A DNA stretch of 64,000 bases, taken from NCBI RefSeq assembly GCF_019900845.1, contig NZ_CP074570.1, positions 3,038,001-3,102,000 on the forward strand, read 5' to 3'. The position numbers and the translations under genes were made by a program. Numbering within the stretch: the first letter of the stretch is position 1; every line of letters begins with the position of its first letter. This DNA comes from Paraneptunicella aestuarii (GTDB lineage Bacteria; Pseudomonadota; Gammaproteobacteria; Enterobacterales; Alteromonadaceae). Below the pieces are notes generated by a model that was not told the DNA's origin, ran no database searches, and saw nothing but the letters and a program-made list of their open reading frames with translations. This document shows positions 9,822-63,110 of this stretch, piece by piece.

Positions 9822-12800
9822 TTACTGTTCCCTTTGCTTAGATGCTAGTTCCTTAGATATTGCTTCCCTGACTATTTCACCCTGCTCGACTATCTCCCTC
9901 AACCACTGGCTCACCCTTTCAACATTGGGCGCGTTGAGTATTGAGAAGTGATCGCCGTCGGCGGTTTCTGTGTTCACTTGGGTAAACTCCTGCCAGCCTC
10001 GTTCTTCCAGGGAAATAGGTGAATCTTTAGCTATCAGCAAGTTCACTTTGCTGTCGTAAGGCGCGGCTTGATAAGCACTAAAGGCATCTCTATTGCTACG
10101 ATAAATCAGGAAGCGTTGTTGCAGCTCATCCAGTGACAAAGAAGCGGGTAACGAGCCCTGTTGTTGTCCGGATTGAAGCAATAAAGCTAGCGATTGTGTG
10201 ATCTTGTCCTCAGAATCGGATTGATAGATGTGGTGGATCGCTTTCCATAGCTCAGTTTCCTTGATCCCCATTTCCACCATCATTACTGCGAGCACTTCCA
10301 TATCGCTGTCGACGCCGGGTTCTGCGTTAGCGAACAAGGTAGAATCAATCAGGCTCACACTTGCGACCAGCTCTGCATTGTCATTCAGTTGTCGCGCCAT
10401 TTCATAGGCAATGATACCACCCAACGAATAACCCACTAAATGATAAGGCCCTTGAGGTTGAGCAATTTTCAGTTGCATCACATATTGTTCAGCCAACTCG
10501 GTCAGGCTCATTTGATGAGGCTCAAAGCAATGCAATCCGTAAACTTGCCAGTTTGGTTCTCTTGCCGAAAGCAAAGACAACAAAGGCTGATAACACAGCA
10601 AATCGCCGCCAACCGGATGCACCATAAACAGGGTTTGCTCAGGCGCAGAGGTTGAACTCTGTTGCAATACTTCCAGCACTTCCGAATGTGTTCCTGTTTC
10701 TCCCACAAAGTGTTCACTGCTTACTCTGCTCTGAATCGCACTTGCCATTTCACTCAGAATAGGTGCATTGAATAGCATGGTAACCGGAATGGTACAGGCT
10801 AACTTATCCTGAACAGCCGCTTTAAGCCTGACCATTAACAGAGAATGTCCGCCCAATTCAAAGAAGTGGCTATTGCGCGATATGGCCTGATATTGGATAC
10901 CTAGCAAATCGGCCCAGATATCAACCAACAAGATTTCAATCTCGGTTTCGGGTGCAACATATTGCTCTGATTCCGGTAACAGATTCGCCTCTGGCAAAGC
11001 GCGTTTATCCAACTTGCCGTTCGAGGTCATCGGGAACTGCTGCATCAACGCGTACTGAGCAGGCAACATATAAGCTGGCAACTGTTGGTTCAAATGCTGA
11101 TGAATATGATTAACCGTTTCTTGTTCATTCGAATCAGCCTGTTGCAATTCAATATAGGCATCCAGACGACGATTTTCAGCATCATCCCCCACCATCAAAA
11201 CCACGGCATCGCGCACAATATCCAGCTCACGAATATGTTGTTCGATATCGCCCAATTCAATGCGGTGACCACGTAGTTTTACCTGATCATCCTGGCGTCC
11301 CAAATAGAGCAATTCGCCATTGTGGTTGAACCGCACCAAATCACCACTTCGATACATACGGGGGTTATTGAGAGAGCTATTCTTAGAGCTACTGCTCACT
11401 CCTTCAACCACAGTAACGCCCTGCACAAAGGGATCTGGCACAAAAGACTGCTCGGTTCTTTGTGGCAAGTTCACATAGCCGATGGCTACGCCTTCACCGC
11501 CAATGTACAGCTCTCCGGCACAGCCACGCGGCACAGGCTGTTGTTGTTTGTCTAACACATACAAACGCGCTCCCCCAATGGCTTGCCCTATAGGTACCAG
11601 ATGGGCATTTTGCATGGTCAACTCAGCAAAGGAGGCAATAATGGCGGTTTCCGTTGGCCCGTACATATTGAACAAGGCATTATTTGGAAAGTGAGATTTA
11701 TAGCGTTGTACTAGTTCCGGCACAGCCGCTTCACCACCAATAAACACTTGTTCAAATATCGCCAAGGCATCAATATCCTGCTTCACGGCGAAATTGAACA
11801 ATGCCGTCGTAAAGCCAGCTAGATTAACGCCATAGACTTCATGCAGATGTTGCCAATATTGAAAATCCACCACATGGGCTTGCGGCACCATAATCAAGCT
11901 TTTGCCGTTTAACATGGATGTCAGCATGTCAAACACACAAGGATCAAACGCCGGATTAAAGGTACACATCATGGCATCGACCTTGTCCATATCGAACAAA
12001 CGCGCTTGATAGCAAGTGTTGATCGCCGCTTGCGGCGATACCATCACTCCTTTGGGCGTTCCTGTGGAACCCGAGGTGTAGATGATATAAGCCACATCCT
12101 CGTTCTGTGTTCGGCCTTGAGCATCAAACTCAACGACCGACAACCCTTGCGTTAAAGTTAGCGTTAGCTCTTGCGACATATACCCAAAAGCAGACTCTCC
12201 AGTTTGATGAATAAGCTTACTCGCACCGGCATCCTGCAATATAAATTCCACACGAGATTGCGGCGCACTGGTATCTATCGGAACATAAATCGCACCCGCT
12301 TTGCAAACGGCCATGAAAGCCACAAGCAGCTCCACAGAACGAGGTAACGCCACGGCAATCACCTCACTCGGCTGAATCGACAATTCTGCGATTAAGGCAT
12401 CGGAAGCAGTATCCAACTCTCTGAAAGTCAGCGTTTGGCTCATTGCTTGAGACTCACACGCAACGGCTAATAGTTCCGGTTGTGATTGAACTTGTAGGGC
12501 AAACAATTCAGCAATACTCAATTGAGTTTGATGAGCATAGCCTCGACCTTTCGTCGACAAGGCCAATAGCTGCTCTCTTTCCCTGTCACTCACCAAGTTC
12601 AAGGCATGCAAGCTTGTTTGCGCATTGGATTGCTGTGCTAACTGCTCAAACAGTGTCGTCAATTGCTCAGCCAGGCTGGTGATAGTATCAGGATGGAATA
12701 ATGCCGAGCAGAAATTGAGGTTCAACAATAATGTCGCCTCTTCCTTACTGCCTAATTCAATCGCATTAAGCGCCAGATCAAACTTGGCGACCTGATCATT

Positions 12801-15800
12801 AATAAACCGCGGATCAAACGCCAAATTAACTGAAGCATTCTCATCACGCTCAAGCGTCAGAACCATTTGCACCAACGGGTTATAAGCCGTGCTACGTGCA
12901 GGATTCAGCAACTCAACCAGATAATCAAACGGAATATCCTGATGCTGTTGCGCAGCTAAATGCAGCTCTCGAATATGACTCAAATAGTCAGCAACAGAGC
13001 TCTCACCTTGAACTGAGGCTCGCAACACCAGAGTATTAACAAAGAAGCCAATTAAATCCGACGTTTCCACGAGGTTTCGGTTCGCTACAGGAGCCCCTAA
13101 AACAATATCCTCACTGTCAGTGCGTCGCGCCAAGACAATAGCAAAAGCGGCGTGCAACAACATATACAAGGACAAACCATGCTCAGCAGCAACCGTTTTC
13201 AGTTGTTGCAACAGCTCGGAAGGTAATTGCCATTGATAGGTTTCACCTGAGAAAGATTGCACCTCTGGGCGCACAAAGTCCGGTTCTAGCTGATGAATTA
13301 ACGGCAAATCTTGCAACTGGGATTGCCAGTATGCCTTGGATTGTGCCGATGCCTCTCCCTGCAAATAGTTATTTAACCATGCCGTGTAATCCAAATAACG
13401 AATTGGCAGCACAGTCCAATCCGGTCTGACATTCGCTCTTTCAATTTCTCCTTCCCTTGCAGCTAAAGCTTGGTAAGCAAGTTGGTAATCTCGTAAGAAA
13501 ACAGACTCAGACCAACCGTCAAAAGCAATATGATGGATGTTCACTATCAACTGCCCGTTTATGCCTTGTGGAGCAGAATCCAGCGTAAAGTCAGATTGCC
13601 CGAAATCGACATATACCGCTCGTAGCATGAGCGCTTGGCTCATATCAAAATGGTGTTTTTCTTCGGTTCGTAATACGTCACGAACCTGTGTGCGATAAGC
13701 CTTTAAGCCTCCAGCTTTCAGCTCATTTGAGTTGCAACATTTCACCACTTCAATATCAAATGCGACCTCAGACATGGGTTGTACAACTTGATACAGGGTT
13801 TCACCGTCTCGCTTATACACAGTGCGTAACGGCTCATGACGTTCAATGACTAATTGCAATGCACGTTTCGCTGTTGCCAAATCGAACCCAGCCATGGTTG
13901 GCATGACAAAAGGCACATTGTAACGCCCTTGCCCTTCCGACAATTGATCGATTAACCACATACGACTTTGAGAAGGCGAAGCCGGATAGCGCATGGTATC
14001 TGCGGGCAATGGAACAATGGCTTGAGGCTCTATTTTTTTGGACTCTCTCTGTCCATTCTCTAGCGGTTTATCTTCCAGGCGCAAAGCCATATCCATAAGC
14101 ACAGGCGAGTTAAACAATTCTGAAATGACCAGATTAATGCCATATTTCTGCAGCAATAGTGCTTTTAAACGCACAATCAATAACGAATGTCCGCCCAAGG
14201 CAAAGAAGTGGCTTTGACGTGACAATACATCAGCATCAACACCCAGTAACCCAGCCCACAACGCAGCTAATTGTTTTTCATTCTCTGTTTGTAATGCTTC
14301 ACCAACTTCCGTTTCAGGCACTAAATCCGCTTCTGGCAAGGCACGTTTATCCAGCTTACCGTTGCTGGTTAATGGGAAGGCATCCAATACGGCGTATTGA
14401 CTGGGGCACATATACTCAGGCAGAGATTGAACCAAATGTTGATGCACCTGATTAACCAGGTTTTGGCTATTCTCACTCGAACACCTATCACTCGAATACC
14501 TCTCACTCGACTCAAGTTCTATAAAGCCATGAAGCTGCGGTTCGTCGGAAGCCTGACTGACAATAATAACCGCATCACGTACGCCATCTATTTCACGCAT
14601 GTGAGCTTCGATATCGCCAAGTTCAATGCGATGCCCACGGATCTTGACCTGATCATCCTGACGCCCACGATACAGCACCATTCCTTCATGGTTAAAGCGC
14701 ACCATATCGCCTGTGCGATACATAACACTGCCATCATTGGTGAAAGGGTCTGTAATAAATGATTCGGCTGTTTTCTCGGGTAAATTCACATAGCCTTGTG
14801 CAACACCTGCACCAGCAATATAAAGTTCACCTTCACAGCCCAACGCGACAGGTTGCTTCTCGCTATCCAGAATATAAAGCGAGTAGCCCGCTAATGGTCG
14901 ACCTATCGGAGCCTGATGAGCGTTGTCAGCGGTCATTCGCAAAAACGTCGCCATAATCGTAGTTTCTGTCGGCCCATACACATTAACCAATGACTTATTA
15001 GGGAAATGAGAAACAAACGCCTGAACCAATTCAGGAATAGCCGCTTCCCCACCCATTGCCACTAAATCAAAGGAAGCAAATGCGTTAATGTCATGCTTCA
15101 CTGCAAAGTGAAATAGTGCGGTTGTCAAAAAGATGGAATTGATCTCGTAATCTTCAATAAGTTTGCGCCAATATTGAAAATCGACCACATGCTCTTGCTC
15201 TAACATAACCAATCCCTTGCCGTTCAGTAACCCAGAGGCTAAGTCGTAAACACTGGGATCAAAGGCTGGATTAAAGGTATTCATCATGTTACTCATCACA
15301 TCCATGTCAAACACTCTGGCTTGATAAGCGGTATTGATGAGTGATTCAGGTGAGACCATCACTCCTTTCGGCGTTCCTGTGGAACCGGAAGTGTAGAGGA
15401 TATAAGCCAGCGCTGACGGGTACTGCCTGGGTTCTAAATTCAGTTGAGCCACAACCAGCTCAAGCCCATCAATAGCCAATTCATTAGAAGCAAGTAGAAC
15501 TTTTTCCCCATTGATCGAGAACGCATGTGAGGATGAGCTCAGCAATCGACTCGCGCCCGCATCTTCAAGCATATAATCAACGCGAGATTGAGGCGCTTTA
15601 ACATCTATCGGCAAATAGATAGCTTGCGCCTTAAACACCGCCACAAAAGCTACGACCAGTTCGATGCTACGAGGCAAAGCCACTGCAACCACTTCACCTT
15701 GTTGCAGTTGTAGCTCTTTCATTAGCTGAGTGGATAAACGGTCTAGCTCTTCGTAACTAATAAACTTATCACCACAAGCCACCGCCATCGCATTGGGTTT

Positions 15801-18800
15801 AGCAGCAACCTGTTTCTCAAACAGCCCCGCCATACTCAGCTCAGTTTGATGCAGATAACCACCGTGAGCTCGTCCATAGGCAAGTATCTGTTCTCGCTCA
15901 TTATCACTAACCAGATTAAGTTGGCTAATCATCGCCTTTGGAGCCGCAACAATACTTTGAAGCAAAGTCGTTAGCTGGTTTGCCAAAGCAAGCATGTTGT
16001 TGTGATGGTACACACCAGTGCTGTATATCAACTGCAAACCCAGTCCATTTTTCGCTTCGATGCCGTGCAGTTCGATGTCGAACTTGGCAACGTGATCGCC
16101 AGCAAGCTTAGGCTCCAATTGCCAACTCACATTCTGCTCTTGAGAATCCAGCGTCATGGCAACCTGAACTAAGGGGTTGTAAGCCGTGCTGCGTGGCGGG
16201 TTAATCATCTCCACCAAATAGTCAAAAGGCATGTCCTGATGCAATTGTGCATCGTGATTTATCTGTTTTATCTGCTCAAGGAAAGAGGCAAATTCCGTGG
16301 CAGGATCGACTTGTGTGCGCAACACCAAAGTATTGACAAAGAATCCCACCAAATGAGTCAGTTCAGTTCTTGTCCGGTTAGCCACTGGCGCACCAATCAC
16401 AATATCGTTGCGTTGAGAACGACGAGATAACAGTACCGAAAAAGCACCATGTAACAACATAAACAAGGACACATGATGTTGCGCCGCTAATGCTTTTAGC
16501 TGTTCCTGTAGTTCAGGCGCTAAACGCCAGCTAATGCTTTTCCCTTCAAAACATTGCAGTTCCGGACGTTCAAAATCCGCTTCCAACCCTTGCAGAGTAG
16601 GCATGTCTTGCAACTGATTCTGCCAGTAGTCTTTATCAGCCTGAGATGATGAGCTTTCGAGATAATGCTGTTGCCAGGCTGAATAATCCAGATAACGAAT
16701 AGGTAACGGCGGTAGTTCAGCTTGTGAATTATCCGTAAGTGATTGAATAATGGCGTTAAAGTCGTCAATAAACACCGTCTGCGACCAACCATCAAAAGCA
16801 ATATGATGTACGTTAATCAACAACAATCCCTGTTGCTCTGATAGCTTAACGTGTAGCGCAGTGAGCATCACATCCTTGCTCAAATCAAACTGATGCTCAG
16901 CCAATTCCTTCGCCACAGATCGAACCGTTTGATGGCGTTTGTCTTCGGTCATAGTTGAGCAATCAATCTGCTCTAGCCCGATATCCACGGCATCCATAGA
17001 CATGACTTGCTGATAAAGCACTTCGTCGCGATTTTCAAATACCGTACGTAAAGGCTCATGACGTTCAATGACCATTCGTAAAGCATGTTCAGCCAAAGCC
17101 AGATCAAAACTGCTCTCCGTTGCTATGGAAAACGGAATGGTATAGTGACCAGCTCCATCAGACAGTTGCTCTATTAGCCACATGCGATGTTGCGCGGCAG
17201 AAGCCGGATATTCGGTTTGTTCGCCGGGTAACCTGAACGCCAAGAGCATATTGCCAGCAGAAGCGCCTTGTTCATCAACCCGTTGCGCCAAACCACGAAT
17301 AGTGGGATAGCGGAACAACTCAACCATGGCTAAATGCACATCAAAACGCGCATTAATGGCGTTAATCACCTGAATGGCTAACAGGGATTTGCCTCCAAGC
17401 GCGAAGAAGTTATCGGTCACACCGATTTTTTGGTCTGCTTGTTCATAACCTAATAAGCGTGACCACAATTCTACCAGCCAGTGTTCAATCTCGGTGTCTG
17501 GATGAACATAGTCATGGGTGATAACGGTAGAACTGCTTAGATAACGCTCTCGCAAGACCTTGCGTTCAATCTTGCCGTTGGCACTCAGTGGCATCGCCTC
17601 CAGCGTTATCCACTCTCCCGGGAACATAAAGCTGGGTAATCGGGAACGAACCTGTTCTTGAACCTCAAGTTCACTCTCTAAATATTCTGACTCATACTCT
17701 GACTCATATTCGATAAAGGCCACCAATCGCTGCATGTTCGCTTGTTCACGCACCAATACTGCACTGCGTTTGACCTGCTCACAGTCACTGATAACCGACT
17801 CAATTTCACCCAGTTCAATACGAAAGCCATTGAGCTTAACCTGCTGGTCGCCTCGACCAATAAACTCCAATACGCCCTGCTTATATTCACCCTCGGCTCC
17901 ATCCTCAGAATCAGAAAGGCGCACAATATCGCCGGTGCGATAAAATCGCTGGTTGGCAAAGATAATAAACTTCTCGTCAGTGAGCTCAGGTTTATGCAAA
18001 TACCCCAGCGACAATCCGGTTCCGCCGATATACAGCTCACCACTGACACCTCGTGGTGCAATCAGACCTTGTGAATCGACCACATACATCTCACACCCCG
18101 GTAATGGGATACCGATATCCGGCGCGCGTCCGACTTCTCGTGAGCATAATGAATAGCTGGAATAGGTGGTGTCTTCCGAAGGGCCATACAGGTTATACAC
18201 CGCATCAATATGCGGCAGCTGATACAAGCCTTCTACGATATGACCCAGCAGCGCTTCCCCTGCAAGGTTCACAACCCTGACACTCTCTGGTACCGCATTC
18301 GCATCCAGTAACTGCACTATTGCCGAAGGCACAGTATTGATGAGACTGATTGTTTGAGAAGAGGTTTGAGCGTTAGAAATGGATTGCACATCCAGAATAT
18401 GCTTCACCACCACACAGGTACCACCGCAGGACAGCGGCGCGTACATCTCAAAAATCGACAAATCAAAACACATGGAGGTGGCAGCCAGTACCCCTGATAA
18501 CTGCTCTTGCGTGTAGGTCGCAAGCGCCCATTGCAGCATGGATACGGTATTGCCATGGGCAATCATGACGCCTTTGGGCTTACCCGTCGTCCCCGAGGTA
18601 TAGATAAGATACGCCAGGTCAGTGCTTTGTACTTGTGTCACCGGGTTGCAGGTCAGGTGTTCATCGTTTAGCTCTTGGTCAGTGATGCTCTTCACATCCA
18701 GCCAGTTCAATTCAATCTCACCCGCTCTCTTACCCAATCGGTCACGTACTGAATCTTCGCCCAACACAATGTTGATACGCGCATCATCGACGATATAAGC

Positions 18801-21800
18801 CAGACGCTCTTGCGGGTAGTCCGGGTCTAGCGGCACATAGGCTGCACCGGATTTCAGCACCGCCATTAACGCCACAACCAGCTCTAATGAGCGAGGTACA
18901 CACACGCCAACCAAATCACCGGGCTTAACACCTTGCGCGATTAAACGATGTGCCAGCACATTTGCACGCTGGTTTAATTCCAGATAACTCAGTGTGGTGT
19001 TATTAAAACGAAGGGCAATCGCCTCGGGCGTTCGTGCAACCTGCGCTTCAAACAACTGGTGAATACAGGACGAATCAGAAACCGGCACGGGCAGCTCTTT
19101 AGCCGCAACCACTGGCGTACTGATACAGCCTGCACTTAAGGAAATATCCGCCAGCGTACTTACCTCACACAGCTGAGCCAGAATCCGCGTTAAGTCCTCT
19201 GCCATGCGGGTTATCAGGTTTCGGCTAAACAGCGCCGTTCTGAAATTCAGGCTACAACGTATATTTTGTGTTGTGCTTGGCGACACATGCAGCGTTAAAT
19301 CAAACTTCTCGGTGGTGTTTTCTCTAAACCCGGATTTACTTCCAGCCACTTCTTCGCGGCTATGATTATTAGCCACAGCACCGGGTTTCCCTTCATTGTC
19401 CATGGTCAACATGATTTGAAATAGCGGCGTAAAGGCATCACTTCGCTGCGGGTTTAGCAGCTCCACCACCATCTCAAATGGAATGTCCTGATGCGATAAG
19501 GCTTGAACATTCACCTCTCGGATATGCTGTAAATACTCAGAAACCGATTGCGACGCCCCCGCATCACTGCGTAACACCAGTGTGTTGATAAACAGGCCAA
19601 TCAGGGATTCGAGCTCCGGCATGGAGCGGTTTGCCGAGGGCGTTCCAATGGCAACATCGCGCTCGCCACTATAGCGCGACACCAAGACGCTTAACCCCGC
19701 ATGCATCAACATAAACAGGGTTACACCATGCTGCTGTGCCAGTTGCGGTAACTGTTCGCTCAATTCCCGAGGCAGCGACCAGTAATAACTTTGTGCCTCA
19801 ACGCTCACCGAGCCCAAACCTGACTCCAACATGGGCAAGCCGTGGCGCGGCGCTAATCCGCCCAGGTGTTCAATCCAGTAATCTTTGCTGGCTTGAGAGT
19901 CGCTACCCAACAAATATGCTTGCTGCCAGGCAGAAAAATCCAGATAACGAATGGGTAATTCAGGTAAAGTGTCTGATGTTCGTTTAAGCGCATTTTCAAA
20001 CGCTTGCCAGAACACCGGCACAGACCAGCCATCGACTGCAATATGATGCGCGTTTAACAGCAACAAGCCTTGTCCCTGTTCTTCCTTTTTCGCTCGCTGG
20101 ATAAAGCAGGCTTTAAGCATGACATCACAGGATAAATCAAACACATGATGAGCTAATCGCTGCATCGCTTGTTGTGTCACCTGATGTCGGCTCTGCTCGT
20201 CCATCTCGGCACAATCAATAACCTCAAGCTGAAAGCCCGCGTCTTGTAGCGGTATCACTCGCTGATACAGAAGCTCATTTTCATTATCGTCTTCTTTTCT
20301 GCTCTCAAATACTGTCCGAAGCGGCTCGTGACGCTCTAGCACCTGCAACAAGGCCGACTCAATTGCATCAGGACTTGCCGCAACCTGACGGCTAAACACC
20401 ACGTTATAATGATGACTGCCACCATGCAGGCGGTCGACTAACCATAAACTACGCTGACCGGCAGAAGCCGGATATTCGGTTTGTTCGCTGGGTAACCTGA
20501 ACGCCAAGAGCATGTTGTCAGCAGAAGCGCCTTGTTCGGACAAACGCGTTTGTTCATCAACCCGTTGCGCCAAACCACGAATAGTGGGATAGCGGAACAA
20601 CTCAACCATGGCTAAATGCGCATCAAAACGCGCATTAATGGCGTTAATCACCTGAATGGCTAACAGGGATTTGCCTCCAAGCGCGAAGAAGTTATCGGTC
20701 ACACCGATTTGCTTCTCCTGAGTAACGTTAGCATCCTGAGAATTGTAACCCAGTAGGCGTGACCACAATTCTACCAGCCAGTGTTCAATCTCGGTGTCTG
20801 GTTGAACATAGTCATGGGTGATAACGGTAGAACTGCTTAGATAACGCTCTCGCAAGACCTTACGTTCAATCTTGCCATTGGCACTCAGTGGCATCGCCTC
20901 CAGCGTTATCCACTCTCCCGGGAACATAAAGCTCGGTAATCGGGAACGTACTATTTCCTGCACTTGCTCTTGTGCTTTCTCATGTTGCGGCTCATATTCT
21001 GACTCATATTCAACAAAGGCCACCAATCGTTGCATGTTCGCTTGTTCACGCACCAATACTGCACTGCGTTTAACCTGCTCACAGTCACTGATAACCGACT
21101 CAATTTCACCCAGTTCAATACGAAAGCCATTGAGCTTAACCTGCTGGTCGCCTCGACCAATAAACTCCAATACGCCCTGCTCATTCTCATAATCATTCTC
21201 AAATACAGAACAACGCACAATATCGCCGGTGCGATAAAATCGCTGGTTGGCAAAGATAATAAACTTCTCGTCAGTGAGCTCAGGTTTATGCAAATACCCC
21301 AGCGACAATCCGGTTCCACCAATATACAGCTCACCGCTCACGCCTCGTGGTGCAATCAGACCTTGTGAATCGACCACATACATCTCACACCCCGGTAATG
21401 GGATACCGATATCCGGCGCGCGTCCGGCTTCTCGTGAGCATAATGAATAGCTGGAATAGGTGGTATCTTCCGAAGGGCCATACAGGTTATACACCGCATC
21501 AATATGCGGCAGCTGATACAAGCCTTCTACGATATGACCCAGCAGCGCTTCCCCTGCCAGGTTCACAACCCTGACACTCTCTGGTACCGCATTCGCATCC
21601 AGTAACTGTACTATTGCCGAAGGCACGGTATTGATGAGGCTGATTGTTTGAGAAGTGGTTTGAGCGTTAGAAATGGATTGCACATCCAGAATATGCTTCA
21701 CCACCACACAGGTACCACCGCAGGACAGCGGCGCGTACATCTCAAAAATCGACAAATCAAAACACATGGAAGTGGCAGCCAGCACCCCTGATAACTGCTC

Positions 21801-28199: not shown

Positions 28200-29464
28200 A
28201 GTTCAAATTCTTCCATATCTTCTGCATCATTGACCGCGTCATCACCTGAGTTTGAGGCATTAACTGGAGCGCTAAGTAGCTCAATCAAGCGAGCCTGCTC
28301 TTCAATACTTGGCGACTCGAATAAGCTCTTCAGCGTAAATTCAACGTTAAATTGACGACGGATCTGGCTGGCAAGACGAGTAGCTAACAACGAGTGACCG
28401 CCCATGTTAAAGAAGTTATCGGTAGCGCTAATTGCATCTATTTTTAGCAGTTCAGCCCAAATAGCTTGCAGCGCCAATTCGATTTCTGTACTTGGAGCAC
28501 GAGCGTCTGAATCAGAAGAAATACCACGCACTAACTTGTTGCGGTCAATCTTGCCACTGGCTGTTAATGGCCATTCTGTGATGGTCTCAAAACCACTGGG
28601 TAACAGGTAACCCGGTAAATGTGTCGCTAACTCTTCTTCTACCTGGGTCAGGGTTGTTCTATTTTCATCTAGTGACAAAAACGCCCATAAGCCATCGTCT
28701 TCGGCTTTCACCACCGCTTCGGTCACACCCTGGCAGGCTTTCAAGGCCGCTTCGATTTCACCCAATTCAATACGATAACCACGCACCTTCACCTGATTAT
28801 CCTGACGACCGACGAAGACTAATTCACCCGCGTCATTCCATTTCGCTCTGTCGCCGGTGCGATAGACTCGTTGCAGCGTATTGTTGAATCTCAACTCAAC
28901 GAATCGCTCAGCGGTTTGTGCTTCACGCTGCCAATATCCTTCAGCAAGGCTGTCACCGCCAATGCACAACTCTCCTACCACTCCTTGCGGTAATAGCTGA
29001 CCTTGTGCGTCCACAATCCAGTAAGAAGTATTCGCCAAAGGCTTACCAATCGGCGCACTGCCTTTCGATTCAAGGGCTTTTACTGAAACCCGATGGCTAC
29101 TACTGGTAATAACAATTTCCGTGGGGCCATAGGAGTTATAAAGTGCGATGCCTTCTCGTTCACTGGCGTTGTCGCCGTTAAACCAGCTGTCTAACAAACC
29201 AGTGTCAAAGACATCACCGCCACTAACGACTATGCGTAAGCGGGAATCTTGCCAACCTGAAACAGCAACCAGCTGTTTCAGATAAGCCGGCACCACATGC
29301 AGGAAGCTGACTCCGGTTGCTTGAATATATTCCATCAAGGCTTCTGGCTCGGTGACATCATCCGGTCGGATGACCACCGCCGCACCTGCACATAAAGGCA
29401 ATAGCAGCTGGCTCAATGAGGCATCGAAACTCATGGACGCAAACAATAAGCCCCTTGTCTTCAC
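28196..29464 (-). CDS. NRPS C, 3' part after frameshift: rest of A10, T10 and docking tail
   Basis: This frame encodes the second part of an A domain from LLFASMSFDASLSQ onward (code DASHVGSITK), the A10 motif ASGKIDRNKL, a carrier protein (NFFNMGGHSLL, near 28395-28430) and an acidic tail ending MEEFEL. It has no A-domain N-terminus and no plausible ribosome site. Its apparent ATG at 29464 arises only from the shifted frame. It belongs to the gene starting at 39452; with one base removed from the C4 run at 29451-29454 the two parts join into a single 3751-aa protein. The stop overlaps the NRPS D start (ATGA). Confidence 0.85.
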   Translation of the reverse strand: MKTRGLLFASMSFDASLSQLLLPLCAGAAVVIRPDDVTEPEALMEYIQATGVSFLHVVPAYLKQLVAVSGWQDSRLRIVVSGGDVFDTGLLDSWFNGDNASEREGIALYNSYGPTEIVITSSSHRVSVKALESKGSAPIGKPLANTSYWIVDAQGQLLPQGVVGELCIGGDSLAEGYWQREAQTAERFVELRFNNTLQRVYRTGDRAKWNDAGELVFVGRQDNQVKVRGYRIELGEIEAALKACQGVTEAVVKAEDDGLWAFLSLDENRTTLTQVEEELATHLPGYLLPSGFETITEWPLTASGKIDRNKLVRGISSDSDARAPSTEIELALQAIWAELLKIDAISATDNFFNMGGHSLLATRLASQIRRQFNVEFTLKSLFESPSIEEQARLIELLSAPVNASNSGDDAVNDAEDMEEFEL

Positions 29465-39452: not shown

Positions 39453-39498
39453 CTTGCTACTTCCGTTATCTTATTGCTCGGGTATCTATTCGTTTCTT

Positions 39499-39528: not shown

Positions 39529-39572
39529 CTACGCTTTTATCTCTTATTATTATTATGTTGCGAGAGCTAAAC

Positions 39573-40454: not shown

Positions 40455-40568
40455 AGTGTTTTGCCTTCTTTTAAAATTCTGTGTTCTGAAACCCTAAGGT
40501 TTGCTGTTTATTATTCTTTGTTATGGTTCCCAGCCCCGAAATACAGGGCTTATCACCTACTTGTTGTA

Positions 40569-53918: not shown

Positions 53919-56900
53919 AGTGAAAACTCCTCTACTGCATCTTTTCCATCGTTAGATGAGGAAGCGGCTTTATTCTTTTGCATCAAGTCAATAAACATGG
54001 CTTGCTCTTCAATACTGGGAGATTCGAATAAACTCTTAAGGGTAAAATCCACATCAAAATTACGACGTATTTGGCTAGCTAAACGGGTAGCAAGTAATGA
54101 GTGTCCACCGATATTGAAGAAGTTGTCGGTTGCACTGATTGCTTCCAGTTTCAGTAAATCACACCAGATCGCATGCAAAGCAAGCTCTGTTTCGCTTGTT
54201 GGTGGTCGATCGCCACTATCGGAAGAGAGCCCCCGTTCCAGTTTATTACGATCAATCTTGCCGCTTCTGGTCAAAGGCCATTCCGTCACTTTCTCAATAC
54301 CGCTGGGTAGCAAATAGGCTGGCAAATGAATCGCGAGTTCATCTTCAATTTGTGTCAGTTCAACATTGTCTGCGGTAACAAAAGCCCACAAGGCATCATC
54401 TTCTGCTTTAACAACAGCCTCGGTAACGCCTGTACAGGATTTTAGCGCAGCCTCTATTTCACCCAATTCAATGCGGTAGCCTCGCACTTTCACCTGGTTA
54501 TCCTGACGGCCAACACAAATCAGTTCTCCAGATCCGTTCCAGTAACCTCGATCTCCTGTGCGATAAACGCTAAGTGCTTTGCCATTAACTTGCAGGTTCA
54601 CAAATTGTGCTGCGGTTTGCTCTTCTCTTAACCAATATCCGTCGGCAATACAATCCCCGCCAATACATAGTTCACCTACAACGCCTTTCGGTAACAGCTG
54701 CCCTTGAGCATCAACCACCCAATAACTCGAATAAGCCAGAGGTTTACCAATAGGAACAACGGCTTCATCGCCCGTTACCCTATGGCTACTGCTGGTAATA
54801 ACGATCTCCGTTGGTCCGTAAGAATTGTAAAGCTTGATGCCTTGGCGCTCGCTCGCACCTTCGCCCTTGTACCAGCTGTCCAATAAGCTCTTATCAAAGA
54901 TGTCGCCGCCGCTGACAACAATACGTAGACGCGACTCAGACCACCCCGGTACAGTAACCAATTGTTTTAGATAAACAGGTACAACATGCAAGAAACTAAC
55001 ACCTGTTTCCTGCAAGTATTCCATCAATGCATCAGGCTCAGTGATATCGTCAGGACGAACCACCACAGCAGCCCCTGAACACAAAGGCATTAACAGTTGG
55101 CTCAATGAAGCATCAAAGCTCATTGATGCGAACAACAGTCCTCTGTCTTCACTATTCAATTGATAATGGTGCTGTAAACCCGCGATACGTTTTGCAAGTG
55201 CCCCATGGCTGACGACGACACCTTTGGGATTTCCAGTAGAGCCAGATGTGTAAATCATGTAAGCGGGATAATCACCTTGAACCTCTACGTTAACCGCTTC
55301 CACTGCGCCATCAGTATCGTTATCAAGATAATCGGAAACCAACAGCACTTTTTGGTTATGCAGAGGTAATTGGTCTGCCAGAAAATCTTCAGTTACCACG
55401 TGACTAATGTCAGCATCATTAATTAAGTAGGACAAACGCTCATCAGGATAAGTAGGATCAAGCGGCACATAAACACCACCAGACTTCATGATGCCTGCAA
55501 CAGCGACCACCATTTCAAGCGAGCGTTGCAAACTCAAACCAACCCGATCACCCACTTTAACACCAGCCTTAATTAACCCCTGCGCCAAACGATTGGCTTG
55601 GGCTTCCAACTCAGAAAAAGTAAGAGATTCATCTTCCATCACTACCGCAGTAGCACTCGGCAGGGTTTGGGATAATATTGATATTTGCTCAGGAATTAAC
55701 TTCACCGGAACCGTTAGACTTTCGCCTTGCGCTAACATCTCAAGTTCATGTGAATCCTGAGTATTAACCAAAGGCAATTCACCTAATGGCGAATTTGGAT
55801 TTTTCACAACAGCCTCTAGCATGGCAGCAAAGCTATAAGCCATTGTTTCAATAGAACCTGCTTTGAATAAATCAGTGGCATAGCACCAGGTGAGTTCTAA
55901 TCCTTTATTCGTGGGTTTGGCGTACAAAGTTAAGTCATAGTTAACATTAACGTATTGACTCTCCCCACGCTCAAGATCGGCCACTTCCTGAATATCGTCA
56001 TCGCTATAAACAAGGTTCAATACCAGCTGGAACAATGGGCTGTAACTACTATTTCGTTCCGGATTAAGGCTGCGAACCAGAGATTCAAAAGGCATATCAA
56101 AATGAGCGCGATCTTTAAGGTTTTCGTCTCGTGTCTGAGCAAGTTGAGCAACGAAATCCTGCTCCATATTCAACTGATTACGCAGTACAAGTGTGTCAAC
56201 GAAGGCACCAACCAAATGATGAGTATCGGGATGGTTTCGATTAGCGTTAGCTGTACCTAACACCACATCGGTTTCACCTGACATTCTGGCGATGAAGGTA
56301 GCGAACAAAGTTTGCAAGCCAACAAACATGGTGCTCTTATTATCTAGAAACAGTCGGGATAAACGGTTAAAAACATCATGTTCTATATGTTGATAATGGT
56401 AAGCACCAACGGAACTGGGCAAGGATGGACGGTTATAATCCAGCGGCAACTTGTGAACTTCTGGCAGCCCTTTCAAACGCTGCCCCCAATACACAATGTT
56501 ATCGGCTAAGGTTCGTTTTATTTCCTCGCGCTGCCAAATAGCGTAATCACGGTACTGAATTGGCAATGCAGGTAAATCTGCTTGCTTATCATGTTCCAAG
56601 GCATTCAAGCAAAGAGAGAACTCTTGCGCCAATACCTGATTTGACCAACCATCGGTAATAATGTGGTGCAAATTCAACAACAATACAGCGCAATCACTCA
56701 TGCGCACCAAAGTGGCACTCATTAGAGGATCGTTAGTCAAATCACGTTTCAAACCATATTCATTGTCAAGACACTCTGAAAATGCACGCTGTTTGTCATG
56801 CTCGTTACAATGACTTAAATCCAGTTCCTTAAACGGTACCTGCCATTCTTGATGAACTCGCTGCCATAACATCTCGTCGTATTCAAAATTAGTACGCAAA

Positions 56901-59900
56901 ATCTCATGACGTTGCGTCATCAATTGCAAAGCTTGTTTAAGTTTTTCAACATCATAATTTTTGTCGAGCTTAATACTACTGACAACGTTGAAGTGCTTGC
57001 CTGTTTCACTGAGATTTTCAACGAACCAGAAATTATTCTGTGTATAAGAAGCCAAATATCTGCTGCTATCTTCCTGCCTCGGAATACTAGCAAGAGAGTG
57101 GCGGCCCTGATGCTGCTCAATCAAACGAATTAAATCGGCAAAGACAGCATTCCCCAGAATATCACTTACGATTAATGTCGCATCAAACTGAATTTGAATT
57201 TCCGCCACCAATGACATAGCACTGAGAGAATGCCCTCCTAAATCAAAGAAGCTGTCATGAAGGTGTATTTGGGACAAGGGAACATCAAGCAAACGAGACC
57301 ATATATCAGCCAGTTGCTTCTCCATTTCAGTCACTGGCAAGCCCGCCCCATCGCTTGCTATCACGATTTCAGCTTCTGTCGCCAGTAATGCCTTTGTGTC
57401 TAACTTGCCATGCCCTGTGGTCGGCCACTCATCGACGAATTGAAAACGAGATGGCTGCATGTAAGTAGGCAAATTATCCTTAGCTTGCACGCGCAATTGC
57501 TCTTGGAAGGCTCGAACAGCGTCCGCATCCATAGACTCAATTGTCGAAGGGAGGCTAACAAATGCGATTAGCTGTTGCGTATCCTGCTTAAACAATACTT
57601 TAACTTCGGAGACTTCCGGCAACGCGACGATAACTCGTTCAACTTCTTCTAACTCAACACGATAACCACGGATCTTAATTTGCTCATCTCGTCTTCCGGC
57701 AAACTGTAATTTTCCGTTTTCGGTTAATTTGACGAAATCCCCAGTCCGGTATAGGCGTTCATTCTGACTATAAGGACAATCAACAAAAACAGCCTGTGTT
57801 TGTTCAGCACGATTTAAATAACCGCGCGCAACCCCTCGGCCACCAATGCACAATTCACCAATAGTGCCTTTGGGAAGCAATGATAGATTTTCGCCCAGCA
57901 CATAAGCCGTAACCCCTTGCATGGGACGCCCAATATCAACACCATCCTCTAGCACACCATAAGCAGCATTGATCGTGGTTTCTGTCGGCCCATAAACATT
58001 AAGCGCAGCTCGCTCAAAGCGTTGACAATAATCCTTAATTTTCCCAAACACACTATAAGAAATGTCTTCGCCACTCGCGATAAAGTGAGGTGCGTATTGC
58101 TCTTCTGAGTGAAAATCAATGAGTGTTGAAATCATTGAAGGGGTTGAGTTAACCACCTCAATTCTGTGCTCTTCAACAAGCTGCCAGATTTGTTCTGGCG
58201 TGGTCATTTGGTCTTCGGAGGCCACAACCAACTTAATCCCTTGGCAAAGTAGTCCCAAGCCTTTTAGCGAGGCATCAAAAGAAAAAGACTGAGTCACTAA
58301 CCAATTGGATAAGCTGGCAATGCCCAAGTCTTTAAATTGCTTGTCAAAGCCCGCCATGAAATTTGAAAACTGGGCATCTTCAACCATGACACCTTTGGGA
58401 TTTCCTGTAGAGCCAGAGGTATAGATCACATACATGAGATCATTTGGCTGACGAGAACAATACTGATACTCGCCCTGCTCTTGCTCCATTATGCTCTTCA
58501 TATTCAAGACCGGAACTTCAGCAGGCATCTCTCCTTGCCAATAATCTTCGTCGGCAGATAGCAAGCACAGAGGTTTAGCGTCTTGAATAATATAATGTGC
58601 GCGCGAAAGCGGGTTATTTGGGTCAAGTGACAAAAAAGCACAACCCGCTTTCAATACGCCTAACATCATAACCAACATGTTGTGATCGCGGGGAGATTGC
58701 AATGCGACTAAATGGCTTATCCCCTCCACTCCCTGTGCTGCTTTATGTTGCATAGAGAGTGATTGAACGGCAACCGCTACACGTTGAACTTGTTCATTGA
58801 TTTGCTCATAGGTAAATTCCCCAGACTCATCAACAATGGCAATTGCGTGGGGACTCCGAGCAGCTTGTTGCTCAAAGAGTTCAACCCAATTCTCTTGATG
58901 TACGGTTTCTGACAACGGGCCACGAGCCAGTTGCAGCAATTCAGATTCTTCCTGGGAAGAAAGCATTGCCAGGTCATAAATATTACAACCCGGATCAACA
59001 ATTGCAGACCGAATAAGGTTAACCAGATGGTGCTGATAGCCTTTAATCGTCTCTTCTTTAAACAGTGATGTATTGTAATTAATCTCAAACTTCAAACCAT
59101 CAACTGAGGTACGAATATTCAGTGTTAAATCTACTTTCGAGGAAGGTGGCTCAAAATATTTAAACTCACTGACATTGGTTTTGTTAAATTCAACCTCGTC
59201 CATGTTCATCATGATTTGGAATAGAGGCGGAATATTCTCGGTACGCTCGAAATCAAGTTCATTGGCTAAATGGACGAATGGAATATTGCCATTATTCTGA
59301 GCATTCAGGCTGACTTGTTTTACTTGCTCGACTAACTCACTAAAGTTCAAGTCGTTATGACAATTCACGCGCATAACGATGCTATCAGCAAATAGACCGA
59401 TAAGTTTTTCCAAACGAGAATCGGGTCGATTAGCGAAAGGAACACCGATCACGATATCCTGTTGATTGCTGTGGCGAGCAATTAAGGTTGAGAATAAAGC
59501 ATGAACAACAACAAATAAGGATGCATTCAGAGAAGAAGCTAATGTTTCCAGCCTTAAAGAAGTTTGAATATCAAGTTGGAAAGTTAAATTTTGTCCTGAA
59601 AAATCGGTTTTATCCGGACGAGGGAAATCGAGTGGTAACCCATGGCATTGGGGTAAATTCGCTAACTGCTTTTTCCAGAACTGGAGTTGCTCTAGATACT
59701 GGCCTGACTCTACAAAGCTTTTTTGCCATTTAGAATAATCAATGTAGTTCAGTTCCAATGGCGGTAGAGCATTAACAGCATCGACATCACCCGCATATTT
59801 TGAATAAGCTTGCTTAAATTCTTTTTCCAGAACACTCAACGACCATCCGTCAAACGCAATATGATGAATGTTGAAAATAAGCGCACCGGAAGTCTCCCCT

Positions 59901-62059
59901 TGCACGAACAACACTCGTATAGGATGTTCAGAAGCGGTATCAAAACAGTAATCACATTCATGACTAATCGTTACCGCTAATTTTTGTTTAACGTCTGAAT
60001 CTGAACCAGCTTTAACCACTATAGGTTGAACAGGAATATCATCTGCAATGCGTTGTAGTAGCTCTCCATGCTGGAAAACAAAATGCGTTCTTAACGTGAT
60101 GTGTCGTGACACAATCTCATTAATCGCTTTTTCTGCCGCATCAAAATTGAAGCTCTCGTCTGCGTCCCTGACAAACACCAGATTGTACAAAGTGTGTTCT
60201 TGCGCCACTCTTTCGTGCAGCCAAACGCTAGTTTGCTGAAAGGACGCCTCTAACGAGGTTACTTCTTCATTTACTGCTGCCGGGCTAAGAACTTTGTTAT
60301 TTGAGGGTTCGGTATCATCAATCACTTGTGCTAGTGATGCTAAAGTGCTTGCTTCATATAACTGCTGGATCGAGAGCACTTTGCCAAAATGTTGTGAGAT
60401 AGCAGAACGAATTTTTACAATAGCAATTGAATTGCCACCCAATTCAAATAAAGAATCTTGCCGCCCTATCAAAGTGCGCTCGTAAGATAACGCATTCGCC
60501 CAAATATCGGCCAGCTTCTCTTCTGTTTCAGACTCAAGTACAGAATGAGTATGCTGACGTATAAGCTCACCCGATACTTGTAACTTGGGAACATCAACTT
60601 TGCCGTTAACATTCAACGGAATATGTTTCACTTGAAAGTATTGACGAGGCATCATGTAAGAAGGGAAACAGGCTGATATATGCTCGACCAAAGTAGCTAA
60701 AGCCGATTGTGCGTCGTTTACTTCCGGACTAAACACCAAATAGGCAGAAATACCTGATTTACTGGCTTCAATGTGTACAGCCTTAACTTCATCAACCTGA
60801 TAGATGACTTGCTCGATTTCTTTAGGTTCTACACGATAGCCACTCACTTTTACTTGAGAATCATTTCTTCCGATGAACCATAAATTCCCTTCTCTCTCCT
60901 TAACCAAATCACCGGTTTTAAAGTAAGGAACACCATCAAAGCTGACAAATACCTGTTCATTCAGTTCAGGACGATTTAAGTACCCTTGGCTAACCTGAGC
61001 TCCCCCCAAGTACAACTCGCCGATTTCATTTTCGGCACAATCGTCTCCTTGAGCATTCAATATTTTATGCTTAACGCCCGGGAAACAATGACCAATTGGA
61101 ACCTGATTCAATTCGTCATCCCATTCACTGGAATGAAACACTGTAGCACCGACCGTTACTTCAGTAGGCCCGTAAACATTCAAAACAGGAACAGATTCAC
61201 CAAAGACCTGACGCCATTGCTGTAACATGGCGGCCGACATAGCTTCACCACCTAAAGCAGCTAAACGTAAAGTTTTAGCCAAGTCAGGATTAAAACCATT
61301 GTTAAGTTCACTACAAAGAAGATGCCAAAAAGCGGTAGGAAGAGAGATCACCGAAACCTGATGCTTATCAATGAACTCCCAGAATATTTGAGTGCTTGTG
61401 GAAATGTTTTCGTCACGAACAATAAGAGTCGCACCAACCGACAACCACATGATTAACTCTTCGATAAAAATATCAAAGGCCACAGTAGAAAACTGTAGCA
61501 TGCGATCTGACCCAAACAAATTATATTCCTCTACAACAGCTGTCTTAAACGCCGTTAAGTTTGAGTCACTGATAGGCACACCTTTTGGTTTACCCGTCGT
61601 ACCAGAGGTATACATGATGTACACGGGTTGATCACCAAGAGGCTGAGCACAAAAAACCTCTTTTTGTTCCCAATTGGTATCTTCAACGTAATAAGAAGGA
61701 ACCGAATTTGAAACCGCACAATTAAGACTTCGAGTCGTTATCACCAAAGCGGCTTGGCTATCTTCGCAAATAATATCCATGCGCTGTTGAGGAACGTCTT
61801 GATCAAGTGAAACAAACGTTGCACCACAAGCGTTAATGGCAAGAATCGACACCAGCAGATCAATGCCTCTGGGTAACAAAACCACTACAGGTTTACCGCT
61901 AATATCTGCATGATTCTGTAACTGTAGTCCCAGTGCATTCACCCGACTTTGTAATTCATTGTAACTATAAGTTAACCCGCCTACTTCGACAGCTATCTTA
62001 TTAGGGTGAAGGCTAGCATTTGTATCTAACAAGCTATACAACATCTGACTCGGTGCCAT
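53915..62059 (-). CDS. NRPS A: initiating synthetase, modules 1-3 (2714 aa)
   Basis: First enzyme of the line. It begins directly with an A domain, so initiation uses a free amino acid, not an acyl starter C domain. Approximate residues: A1 14-490, T1 near 540 (GGNS); C2 604-1040 (HHIAFDG), A2 1064-1554, T2 near 1610; C3 1674-2100 (HHIITDG), A3 2127-2604, T3 near 2650; acidic tail ending VEEFSL. Codes: A1 DIESAGVVGK (Glu at 239 suggests a basic side chain, uncertain), A2 DAKNISVINK (unassigned), A3 DASHVGSITK (unassigned, shared with modules 4, 9, 10). The start is set at ATG 62059 because AAGGA lies 9 nt upstream; TTG at 62065 is too close to that site. It lacks the N-terminal docking domain carried by B, C and D, as expected for the starter. 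Confidence 0.95.
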   Translation of the reverse strand: MAPSQMLYSLLDTNASLHPNKIAVEVGGLTYSYNELQSRVNALGLQLQNHADISGKPVVVLLPRGIDLLVSILAINACGATFVSLDQDVPQQRMDIICEDSQAALVITTRSLNCAVSNSVPSYYVEDTNWEQKEVFCAQPLGDQPVYIMYTSGTTGKPKGVPISDSNLTAFKTAVVEEYNLFGSDRMLQFSTVAFDIFIEELIMWLSVGATLIVRDENISTSTQIFWEFIDKHQVSVISLPTAFWHLLCSELNNGFNPDLAKTLRLAALGGEAMSAAMLQQWRQVFGESVPVLNVYGPTEVTVGATVFHSSEWDDELNQVPIGHCFPGVKHKILNAQGDDCAENEIGELYLGGAQVSQGYLNRPELNEQVFVSFDGVPYFKTGDLVKEREGNLWFIGRNDSQVKVSGYRVEPKEIEQVIYQVDEVKAVHIEASKSGISAYLVFSPEVNDAQSALATLVEHISACFPSYMMPRQYFQVKHIPLNVNGKVDVPKLQVSGELIRQHTHSVLESETEEKLADIWANALSYERTLIGRQDSLFELGGNSIAIVKIRSAISQHFGKVLSIQQLYEASTLASLAQVIDDTEPSNNKVLSPAAVNEEVTSLEASFQQTSVWLHERVAQEHTLYNLVFVRDADESFNFDAAEKAINEIVSRHITLRTHFVFQHGELLQRIADDIPVQPIVVKAGSDSDVKQKLAVTISHECDYCFDTASEHPIRVLFVQGETSGALIFNIHHIAFDGWSLSVLEKEFKQAYSKYAGDVDAVNALPPLELNYIDYSKWQKSFVESGQYLEQLQFWKKQLANLPQCHGLPLDFPRPDKTDFSGQNLTFQLDIQTSLRLETLASSLNASLFVVVHALFSTLIARHSNQQDIVIGVPFANRPDSRLEKLIGLFADSIVMRVNCHNDLNFSELVEQVKQVSLNAQNNGNIPFVHLANELDFERTENIPPLFQIMMNMDEVEFNKTNVSEFKYFEPPSSKVDLTLNIRTSVDGLKFEINYNTSLFKEETIKGYQHHLVNLIRSAIVDPGCNIYDLAMLSSQEESELLQLARGPLSETVHQENWVELFEQQAARSPHAIAIVDESGEFTYEQINEQVQRVAVAVQSLSMQHKAAQGVEGISHLVALQSPRDHNMLVMMLGVLKAGCAFLSLDPNNPLSRAHYIIQDAKPLCLLSADEDYWQGEMPAEVPVLNMKSIMEQEQGEYQYCSRQPNDLMYVIYTSGSTGNPKGVMVEDAQFSNFMAGFDKQFKDLGIASLSNWLVTQSFSFDASLKGLGLLCQGIKLVVASEDQMTTPEQIWQLVEEHRIEVVNSTPSMISTLIDFHSEEQYAPHFIASGEDISYSVFGKIKDYCQRFERAALNVYGPTETTINAAYGVLEDGVDIGRPMQGVTAYVLGENLSLLPKGTIGELCIGGRGVARGYLNRAEQTQAVFVDCPYSQNERLYRTGDFVKLTENGKLQFAGRRDEQIKIRGYRVELEEVERVIVALPEVSEVKVLFKQDTQQLIAFVSLPSTIESMDADAVRAFQEQLRVQAKDNLPTYMQPSRFQFVDEWPTTGHGKLDTKALLATEAEIVIASDGAGLPVTEMEKQLADIWSRLLDVPLSQIHLHDSFFDLGGHSLSAMSLVAEIQIQFDATLIVSDILGNAVFADLIRLIEQHQGRHSLASIPRQEDSSRYLASYTQNNFWFVENLSETGKHFNVVSSIKLDKNYDVEKLKQALQLMTQRHEILRTNFEYDEMLWQRVHQEWQVPFKELDLSHCNEHDKQRAFSECLDNEYGLKRDLTNDPLMSATLVRMSDCAVLLLNLHHIITDGWSNQVLAQEFSLCLNALEHDKQADLPALPIQYRDYAIWQREEIKRTLADNIVYWGQRLKGLPEVHKLPLDYNRPSLPSSVGAYHYQHIEHDVFNRLSRLFLDNKSTMFVGLQTLFATFIARMSGETDVVLGTANANRNHPDTHHLVGAFVDTLVLRNQLNMEQDFVAQLAQTRDENLKDRAHFDMPFESLVRSLNPERNSSYSPLFQLVLNLVYSDDDIQEVADLERGESQYVNVNYDLTLYAKPTNKGLELTWCYATDLFKAGSIETMAYSFAAMLEAVVKNPNSPLGELPLVNTQDSHELEMLAQGESLTVPVKLIPEQISILSQTLPSATAVVMEDESLTFSELEAQANRLAQGLIKAGVKVGDRVGLSLQRSLEMVVAVAGIMKSGGVYVPLDPTYPDERLSYLINDADISHVVTEDFLADQLPLHNQKVLLVSDYLDNDTDGAVEAVNVEVQGDYPAYMIYTSGSTGNPKGVVVSHGALAKRIAGLQHHYQLNSEDRGLLFASMSFDASLSQLLMPLCSGAAVVVRPDDITEPDALMEYLQETGVSFLHVVPVYLKQLVTVPGWSESRLRIVVSGGDIFDKSLLDSWYKGEGASERQGIKLYNSYGPTEIVITSSSHRVTGDEAVVPIGKPLAYSSYWVVDAQGQLLPKGVVGELCIGGDCIADGYWLREEQTAAQFVNLQVNGKALSVYRTGDRGYWNGSGELICVGRQDNQVKVRGYRIELGEIEAALKSCTGVTEAVVKAEDDALWAFVTADNVELTQIEDELAIHLPAYLLPSGIEKVTEWPLTRSGKIDRNKLERGLSSDSGDRPPTSETELALHAIWCDLLKLEAISATDNFFNIGGHSLLATRLASQIRRNFDVDFTLKSLFESPSIEEQAMFIDLMQKNKAASSSNDGKDAVEEFSL

Positions 62060-63110
62060 AATCAATTCCTTGCTTATTCATTTTATAATCGGCAACAACA
62101 CTGCTATTCAGGTCTAAACAAAACCCTTCAACGTCTTACAACCGTAAGCGTATTAATATCGATTTTTTATAAATATCTGACTTCAACGATTCTCCGAAAA
62201 GTGCCATTGAAGATACTTAGAAAAAGTCGAAATGAGGATGAAAAAACTAATAACCCAACACATGGAAAAAAAATAAACACCTATATTTCAAAGCATTAAT
62301 TCATTTGCTAGATAGTTTACTAACCTATATCTGGATATAGCGATACGCCCTAAAGCAAAGCCAAGCACGCCATCCCAAATCAACCTATGACTGTACATAA
62401 CAGCTCTGTTTTTTAGCTATGCGTAGGCAACAACTTAGATGGTATTTCATTTACCATGTCTAAAATTTAACCCACGCATTAATGAAGAATAATCTTTTTC
62501 CCACACGGAGATCATTTTAGGCATAAAAAGGGAAATTTTTGAAGATGCAAAATGATATGAAAAAATGCAATTTGTAGCAAAATGTCAACAAGAGAGGACT
62601 AAAACCGCCATTATAAAGACAATTTAGACACAAAAAACATTAAAACAAAACCTATAAAAACAGGCTGTAGCGCCTTAATTTGATAGATTTGGTTAATATT
62701 TTCACACCTATCAATAATGCAAATCAAAACTGCTTATAATGTATTCATCAGTAAGCTTACAGACGCTCTATCAGGCTATTTTTTCATCAACAAAAAGTGC
62801 CGCAAAAGTATCAAAAACAGAGCATCAGATTCATTATATTTAGCATTTGAAAAATATTATTTATTGTTTTTTATTTATCGAAAAACTCACACAATAAAGC
62901 ACACATTTACAACCAAAGTTACACATAAGAGAAAATTAAAGTAGTAAGTTTCGCAAATGAAAGATGTCCTTAACAGATATTATTACACCAAGTTAATAAA
63001 GGAACGGTTTGTTACCGCGTCAAAGCTCAGTTGCAGCCTATATTTTTGGACGAAATCAGCAATTTCCCCTACAGTATTAACTCCATGTTAGTAATCTCTA
63101 TCGAGTCGCT
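62060..63110. other. AT-rich intergenic region between NRPS A and the glutamate-synthase-family gene
   Basis: About 1.05 kb. It must hold the promoter of the NRPS operon (minus strand), but I see no -35/-10 pair close to consensus. There is a CTTAC-AACC-GTAAG inverted repeat at 62135-62148. The 75-codon plus-strand frame at 62717-62944 lacks a ribosome site and family features and is not called. Confidence 0.6.
62135..62148. promoter_or_regulatory. Small inverted repeat upstream of NRPS A
   Basis: CTTACAACCGTAAG, 5-bp arms extending imperfectly to ACG/CGT, 76-89 bp upstream of the NRPS A start. A candidate regulator site or leader hairpin. Confidence 0.25.

Follow-up and report, generated by a model that had tools for sequence, protein, structure and literature searches.

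An orphan 15-module non-ribosomal peptide synthetase line, probably of a length-variable family, in Paraneptunicella aestuarii

The window analysed here, a 64,000-nucleotide stretch of Paraneptunicella aestuarii contig NZ_CP074570.1 whose positions serve as coordinates unless the genome contig is named, encodes on its minus strand (9822-62065) a non-ribosomal peptide synthetase (NRPS) line with 15 adenylation (A), 15 thiolation (T) and 14 full condensation (C) domains, one epimerisation (E) domain and one thioesterase (TE). The whole is best explained, with a probability of roughly 0.7, as an orphan type I NRPS of a length-variable family, whose subunits would act in gene order to make a peptide that is then tailored and exported. 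Module order, codes, docking domains, the conserved gene set and a frame change inside module 10 are read directly from the DNA. The initial annotation had described four synthetases with 15 A-T units, one E domain and one TE; the counts hold, but the third synthetase is not a single reading frame, as module 10 changes frame and the window contains five NRPS reading frames. S1-S4 denote the synthetases, M1-M15 the modules and Z the residue type specified by the code DASHVGSITK; the genes and domains, including open reading frames (ORFs), are as follows.

53915-62065, minus strand: synthetase S1, three A domains (M1-M3), beginning with an A domain
40569-53918, minus strand: synthetase S2, four C-A-T modules (M4 Z, M5 Gly, M6 DVCMIGAICK, M7 Gly), N-terminal TubC_N
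39573-40454, minus strand: gene between S2 and S3 for a 293-residue protein of predicted class I methyltransferase fold
29358-39452, minus strand: synthetase S3 as sequenced, C-A-T-E (M8 D-Phe), C-A-T (M9 Z), then C and the first part of A10; N-terminal TubC_N
34671-36032, minus strand: E domain of module 8, as delimited by the PF00668 match
28196-29464, minus strand: 422-residue ORF with the rest of A10, T10 and an acidic C-terminal tail
9822-28199, minus strand: synthetase S4, M11 (putative Lys/Arg type), M12 Ala, M13 Ala, M14, M15 and TE; N-terminal TubC_N
9822-10742, minus strand: TE release domain (stretch as scanned)

By their TSG motifs the A domains are distributed 3, 4, 3 and 5 over S1 to S4, and GGxS is kept in 15/15 T domains. 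A C-domain search of the P. aestuarii genome returned 17 stretches in the window, corresponding to the 14 C domains, the E domain and two half-C pieces. The repeated C-A-T modules with their A, T and C motifs are those of a type I modular NRPS, with module 10 split in frame, and a terminal release domain is found at the S4 end (PF00975, 91.7 bits). Docking domains between subunits are present as TubC_N heads, detected when the N-terminal stretches were scanned, in S2 (32.4 bits), S3 (33.0 bits) and S4 (52.2 bits; cut-off 26), and as acidic tails that close S1, S2 and the 422-residue ORF, S3 as sequenced having no tail; heads and tails together fit the action order S1-S2-S3-S4. The sole E domain found comes after the Phe module, and the C domain that follows carries SHTILDGWS (SHAILDGWS in Microbulbifer litoralis); residues other than D-Phe are predicted to be L. 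A line of 15 modules was seen only here among the lines compared.

Module codes were read by hand in PheA numbering, with Gly, Phe and Ala assigned from the known code tables.

M1: DIESAGVVGK, putative Arg/Lys type
M2: DAKNISVINK
M3, M4, M9 and M10: DASHVGSITK, Z
M5 and M7: DILQLGCIWK, Gly
M6: DVCMIGAICK
M8: DAWTIAAVCK, Phe
M11: DIESIGTVIK, putative Lys/Arg type
M12 and M13: DLFNNALTYK, Ala
M14: DPYFAGVIMK
M15: DPFGFGMIIK

The codes as first written, the residue order and the fourfold use of Z were confirmed, and the Gly, D-Phe and Ala assignments hold; substrates given for other modules are predictions. For Z, M2, M14 and M6 the closest solved A domains gave no trustworthy substrate hint. The pocket of M2 contains a Lys, both here and in its M. 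litoralis counterpart (DPIKIGAVNK), which hints at an acidic residue. His278 of the Z code also occurs in hydroxyphenylglycine codes, and an aromatic Z is kept as a guess only. In passages of PMC11253843, a Ser-to-His change at that pocket position of ApnA_A1, the first A domain of the anabaenopeptin synthetase ApnA, favoured 4-azidophenylalanine.

M1 and M11 had been tentatively labelled basic, and this label is strengthened. Among solved structures the M11 pocket region matched ApnA_A1 best (141.9 bits), followed by linear gramicidin synthetase (135.1 bits, a sum of two domains, 67.6 + 65.2) and 8xjz_C (125.2 bits), with tyrocidine synthase 1 (97.6 bits) and PheA (92.5 bits) lower. Glu239 and Ser278 are common to ApnA_A1, M1 and M11, a likeness confined to the A-domain pocket. 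According to passages of PMC11253843, E204 and S243 position the substrate of ApnA_A1, which activates Arg and Tyr, and Pls_A holds Lys by E217, S256 and T301; by our mapping M11 has the Pls_A set, with Glu at 239, Ser at 278 and Thr at about 322. In passages of PMC5311044, DVES.. codes of Planktothrix ApnA A1, DVESIGAIEK being one ApnA A1 code listed, pair with Arg, Tyr or Lys. The M11 pocket is best read as one for Lys or Arg, that of M1 as an Arg/Lys type; the product would probably be positively charged.

Judged by its shared gene set and positional module counterparts, the line belongs to the same cluster family as one in M. litoralis GXH0434. Contig NZ_JALKCV010000023.1 of that strain carries an NRPS gene, a homologue of the 293-residue protein and a further NRPS gene in the same order, with modules 5-8 and the E domain matching; its M8 code, read by eye, is DAWTIGAVCK, as against DAWTIAAVCK here. 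Another contig holds the counterpart of module 2 (45% over S1 residues 599-2067), and another the counterpart of S4, with modules 11, 12 (Ala) and 13 (Ala) and a TE (PF00975, 92.1 bits), followed by genes for an ECF sigma factor, an ABC ATPase, a permease, TauD1, TauD2 and ABC_membrane_3. In M. litoralis these accessory genes are co-oriented with the NRPS genes and precede an HlyD-type gene, whereas in P. aestuarii they face the NRPS genes. The three M. litoralis contigs would together form one cluster. In trees of A and C domains each unrepeated module falls beside its positional counterpart, while M5/M7 (A and C) and M12/M13 (A) pair by genome.

A further counterpart of S3, P0248 (49%, on a 42,751-base contig), reads C-A(Phe)-T-E-C-A(Z, DASHIGSITK)-T plus a similar tail, with one Z module after D-Phe as against two here. 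Searches with S3 returned mostly generic NRPSs at 29-39%, which rank high because long multi-module proteins add up bits, and P0248 was the sole counterpart among the best 120 of 2054 and the best 120 of 1543 matches, beyond which further counterparts may exist. A search with the 293-residue protein found 51 proteins, including relatives at 70-79% identity in, among others, M. litoralis (77%) and Xanthomonas sacchari, one of 79% being P0002, listed with a contig equal in length to that of P0248, and at 63% in Pseudoalteromonas maricaloris. At E 0.001 the gene was found in 3/59 genomes including that of P. aestuarii, the other two matches being 35% identical and 47% over 61 residues; at E 1e-60 it was found in 1/395 family genomes, the P. 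aestuarii one, and at E 1e-20 in 1/48 genomes of the M. litoralis genus. This sporadic spread suggests horizontal transfer. TauD1, present in 7/59 genomes at E 1e-60, is less specific than the 293-residue gene.

Module number differs between these lines. The S4 counterpart of M. litoralis stops after module 13 and has no modules 14-15, and the protein with the module 2 counterpart opens directly with the C domain of that module; on the fetched stretch nothing like an A-T unit precedes it among ORFs of at least 60 residues, and no close match to module 1 was found in the M. litoralis genome except the M11 counterpart. Compared module by module, the line appears to belong to a length-variable family. 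The exclusion of an N-acyl lipopeptide stands for P. aestuarii, where S1 begins with an A domain and there is no starter C domain, but need not hold for the family, given the C domain at the head of the M. litoralis module 2 counterpart.

The following tracts bear on how the line has changed.

40756-43758, minus strand: module 7, 97.5% identical to module 5 (47338-50379) over 3043 alignment columns
17195-19249, minus strand: module 13 A-T tract, 92.3% identical to module 12 (20459-22543) over 2094 columns
31476-33252, minus strand: module 9 A-T tract, 96.7% identical to module 4 (50565-52341) over 1777 columns and 95.5% to module 10 (28282-30039) over 1758 columns
22320-23219, minus strand: decayed C-terminal half of a C domain with a weak A-domain-like remnant before it, between C12 and A12 (stretch as scanned)

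Within P. aestuarii the A domains of M5/M7, M12/M13 and M4/M9 are 97%, 95% and 98% identical, respectively. In M. litoralis the M5/M7 and M12/M13 A domains are 100% identical in both pairs, and repeated tracts reach 99.97% over 2946 columns and 99.5% over 1925 columns in what is a draft genome. Between the two genomes, A-domain identity is 53-54% for M5/M7, 60-61% for M12/M13 and 44-55% for the unrepeated M2, M6, M8 and M11. This pattern of identities indicates that the repeated modules are homogenised within each genome, that is, that they undergo concerted evolution, a process described for NRPS and polyketide synthase genes in passages of PMC4256081. C4 and C10 are 39% alike, so that for Z the A-T part would be homogenised and the C part not.

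The half C domain in S4 is kept in both genomes at 35% identity, compared with 50-62% for C12, A12, C13 and A13, T11 being only 38% identical. It is 41% like C13, and the A-domain-like remnant before it reached a best E of 1.7e-4 in a pairwise test. It is probably the scar left by a module that was lost before the P. aestuarii and M. litoralis lines diverged.

Downstream of S4, on the opposite strand, lies the accessory gene set, given with its identity to M. litoralis.

1-516, plus strand: ABC ATPase, 239 residues, 3' part in the window (start at -203), 77%
513-2930, plus strand: MacB/FtsX-type permease, 805 residues, 58%
3010-4032, plus strand: TauD-family oxygenase 1, 68%
4042-5076, plus strand: TauD-family oxygenase 2, 67%
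5133-6092, plus strand: ABC_membrane_3 protein, 319 residues, 66% over the 151 columns compared

An ECF sigma factor gene next to the exporter genes is 54% identical in M. litoralis; the set occupies the beginning of the window and the DNA immediately to its left. The permease matches the ADOP, MacB and DarB families, each under its curated cut-off, and TauD1 and TauD2 are 39% alike, with PDB matches to At3g21360 and 9yut. A Pfam scan of the 293-residue protein gave no match. The top PDB folds for its predicted model (pLDDT 89.4, pTM 0.90) are O-methyltransferases such as TomG, SafC and COMT at 10-15% identity (TomG: E 7.0e-9, TM 0.53/0.67), and E47, G49 and G51 of motif I (ExGxG) are invariant in 41 aligned sequences; with this Rossmann fold and motif I, the protein is a predicted class I methyltransferase by fold. 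Short transposase-like ORFs (PF01527, PF13276), apparently a degenerate IS3-like element, lie at 8540-9560, between S4 and the accessory genes.

Other genes of the window and genome were noted in passing. A cysteine- and glycine-rich repeat protein with a CFI-box-CTERM domain is encoded at 6342-6830, and at 7108-7969 a 143-residue ORF (DUF6932 match) stands beside a 138-residue helix-turn-helix-like ORF, by eye possibly a toxin-antitoxin type pair from their arrangement. Further TauD-type genes, 38-43% like TauD1, occur at or within other NRPS regions (genome contig 2798554, 2379277 and 866598), that at 866598 having an internal TGA. The genome yielded 90 C-domain matches at E 0.001, one of them under the curated cut-off, and a stretch of about 140 kb outside the window (genome contig 2653450-2792683) contains many more C domains, the frames there reaching 10,773 and 6,844 residues. 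Three split C domains on the genome contig, at 2722061-2723400, 2732466-2733802 and 2782683-2784022, indicate that other NRPS genes there are broken or misread too.

Tailoring, export, regulation and product are inferred. Linked by TubC-type docking domains, S1 to S4 would work in the order of their genes, with M1 loading an Arg/Lys-type residue with a free amine; 14 further residues would then be added in the order X-Z-Z-Gly-X-Gly-D-Phe-Z-Z-Lys/Arg-Ala-Ala-X-X, D-Phe being made by the E domain of module 8. Release by the S4 thioesterase would give a linear or cyclic product. Its residues would probably be decorated, by hydroxylation and methylation, through the pair of TauD oxygenases and the methyltransferase-fold protein, the ABC ATPase and FtsX permease would probably export the product, and the ECF sigma factor beside the exporter may switch the cluster on. 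That the exporter and tailoring genes are conserved suggests a product that is both made and used.

Several observations weigh against this explanation. In whole-protein scans TubC_N falls just below the cut-off of 26 in S2 (24.9 bits) and S3 (25.3 bits). Over the whole M11 A domain ApnA_A1 (298.7 bits) ranks below linear gramicidin synthetase (398.7 bits, two domains summed) and 8xjz_C (305.5 bits), staying above tyrocidine synthase 1 (236.0 bits) and PheA (226.6 bits), and the codes of Z, M2, M6, M14 and M15 have no substrate assignment. No Z module was seen in M. litoralis, whose contigs end beside the expected Z places, as they would if near-identical repeats had been left unassembled. The accessory genes face the NRPS operon with broken transposase pieces between, which may mark the rearrangement that set them face to face. 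The HlyD-type gene of the M. litoralis cluster has no counterpart beside this one; the nearest HlyD relatives in the genome, at genome contig 894418 (49%) and 1541744 (46%), have other NRPS loci no more than about 10 kb away, so that an HlyD export partner may be shared. Finally, the frame change inside A10 removes T10 and the tail from S3.

A10 starts in S3 (A3 motif at residue 3297), whose frame ends at residue 3364 in unrelated sequence, and the rest of A10, with its Z code readable, T10 and the acidic tail sit in the overlapping 422-residue ORF. The alignment of M9 and M10 DNA contains one gap position in its 1758 columns, hence the frame change is a single small indel; it adjoins a run of four equal bases. 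Runs of equal bases are a common site of read errors, and repeats are difficult to assemble. Either a read error or a true mutation may have produced the indel. In the latter case residue 10 cannot be loaded on S3, nor can the chain be passed on to S4. The full 15-mer would be made in this strain only if the frame was misread in sequencing or the indel is bypassed. The proposed pentadecapeptide thus agrees with the 15 modules but becomes conditional, as S3 as sequenced ends inside A10.

A decaying line, with a genuine frame change and either no product at all or just a chain stalled at module 9 or 10, is given somewhat less than even odds. Besides the frame change itself, the broken transposase fragments beside S4 speak for it, and the three split C domains on the genome contig, in pieces with stops or in different frames, are further split NRPS frames of the same genome; the assembly, in one contig and 99.49% complete, is not generally poor. 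Decay fits less well with the presence of 15/15 T domains and of the A-domain TSG and GP[TS]E motifs, with the 98-100% protein identity of M4, M9 and the A10 part in the 422-residue ORF, and with the position of the indel beside the four-base run.

MacB/FtsX permeases are often linked to antibiotic export, and the presence of one here, together with D-Phe and the Arg/Lys-type residues predicted at positions 1 and 11, may point to an exported cationic antibacterial peptide that would act on competitors' envelopes. The pocket Lys of M2, with its hint of an acidic residue, tempers this proposal, whose activity is a prediction; we regard it as plausible, if short of probable. As a proposal on what the product is for, it can stand alongside the orphan, gene-order NRPS line preferred here.

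A metal-binding product, in which paired Z residues would serve as ligands after hydroxylation by the two TauD enzymes, is unlikely, although two TauD-family genes are conserved, the Z pocket is polar, Z-Z units occur in pairs, and a TonB-dependent receptor gene (PF00593, 148.8 bits) lies outside the window, some 7 kb beyond the S1 start (69106-71541 in window numbering). The whole cluster as a product of chance or of assembly artefact was rejected.

The suggestion that the peptide is unrecognised survives the literature searched, in which no published peptide or cluster with this pattern was found (MIBiG not being covered), but the line is not isolated, as counterparts exist. The full Z code had no literature match, and the listed matches to partial codes were off topic by title, a table of codes being neither found nor excluded; titles and abstract openings of the pentadecapeptide NRPS literature gave none with this pattern. 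The kolossin A synthetase of Photorhabdus reportedly also has 15 modules and makes a pentadecapeptide, as one giant protein and with another residue order; on that description it is set apart from the five NRPS frames here. Other NRPS products of Microbulbifer in the literature include bulbiferamides and pseudobulbiferamides.

The Xanthomonas META-A and META-B lines are likewise long orphan NRPS lines, with transporter genes and, in some strains, SyrP genes, according to passages of PMC3849588, which make no mention of a gene like that for the 293-residue protein. In difference from META-B, no MbtH-like gene (PF03621) was found in the P. aestuarii genome (0/1; controls in E. coli and B. subtilis positive). 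No genes for Dpg biosynthesis or daT genes were seen among the ORFs scanned or read near the cluster, no genome-wide search for them being made.

The product is apparently new and the line ordinary in kind, with one damaged or misread module. With the Z code used four times in one line, one A-domain assay would cover four residues. Comparison of P. aestuarii, M. litoralis and P0248 suggests how such lines may change length, at modules 1, 10, 14 and 15 and at the lost module of the S4 scar, and length change combined with homogenised repeats points to natural boundaries for module exchange.

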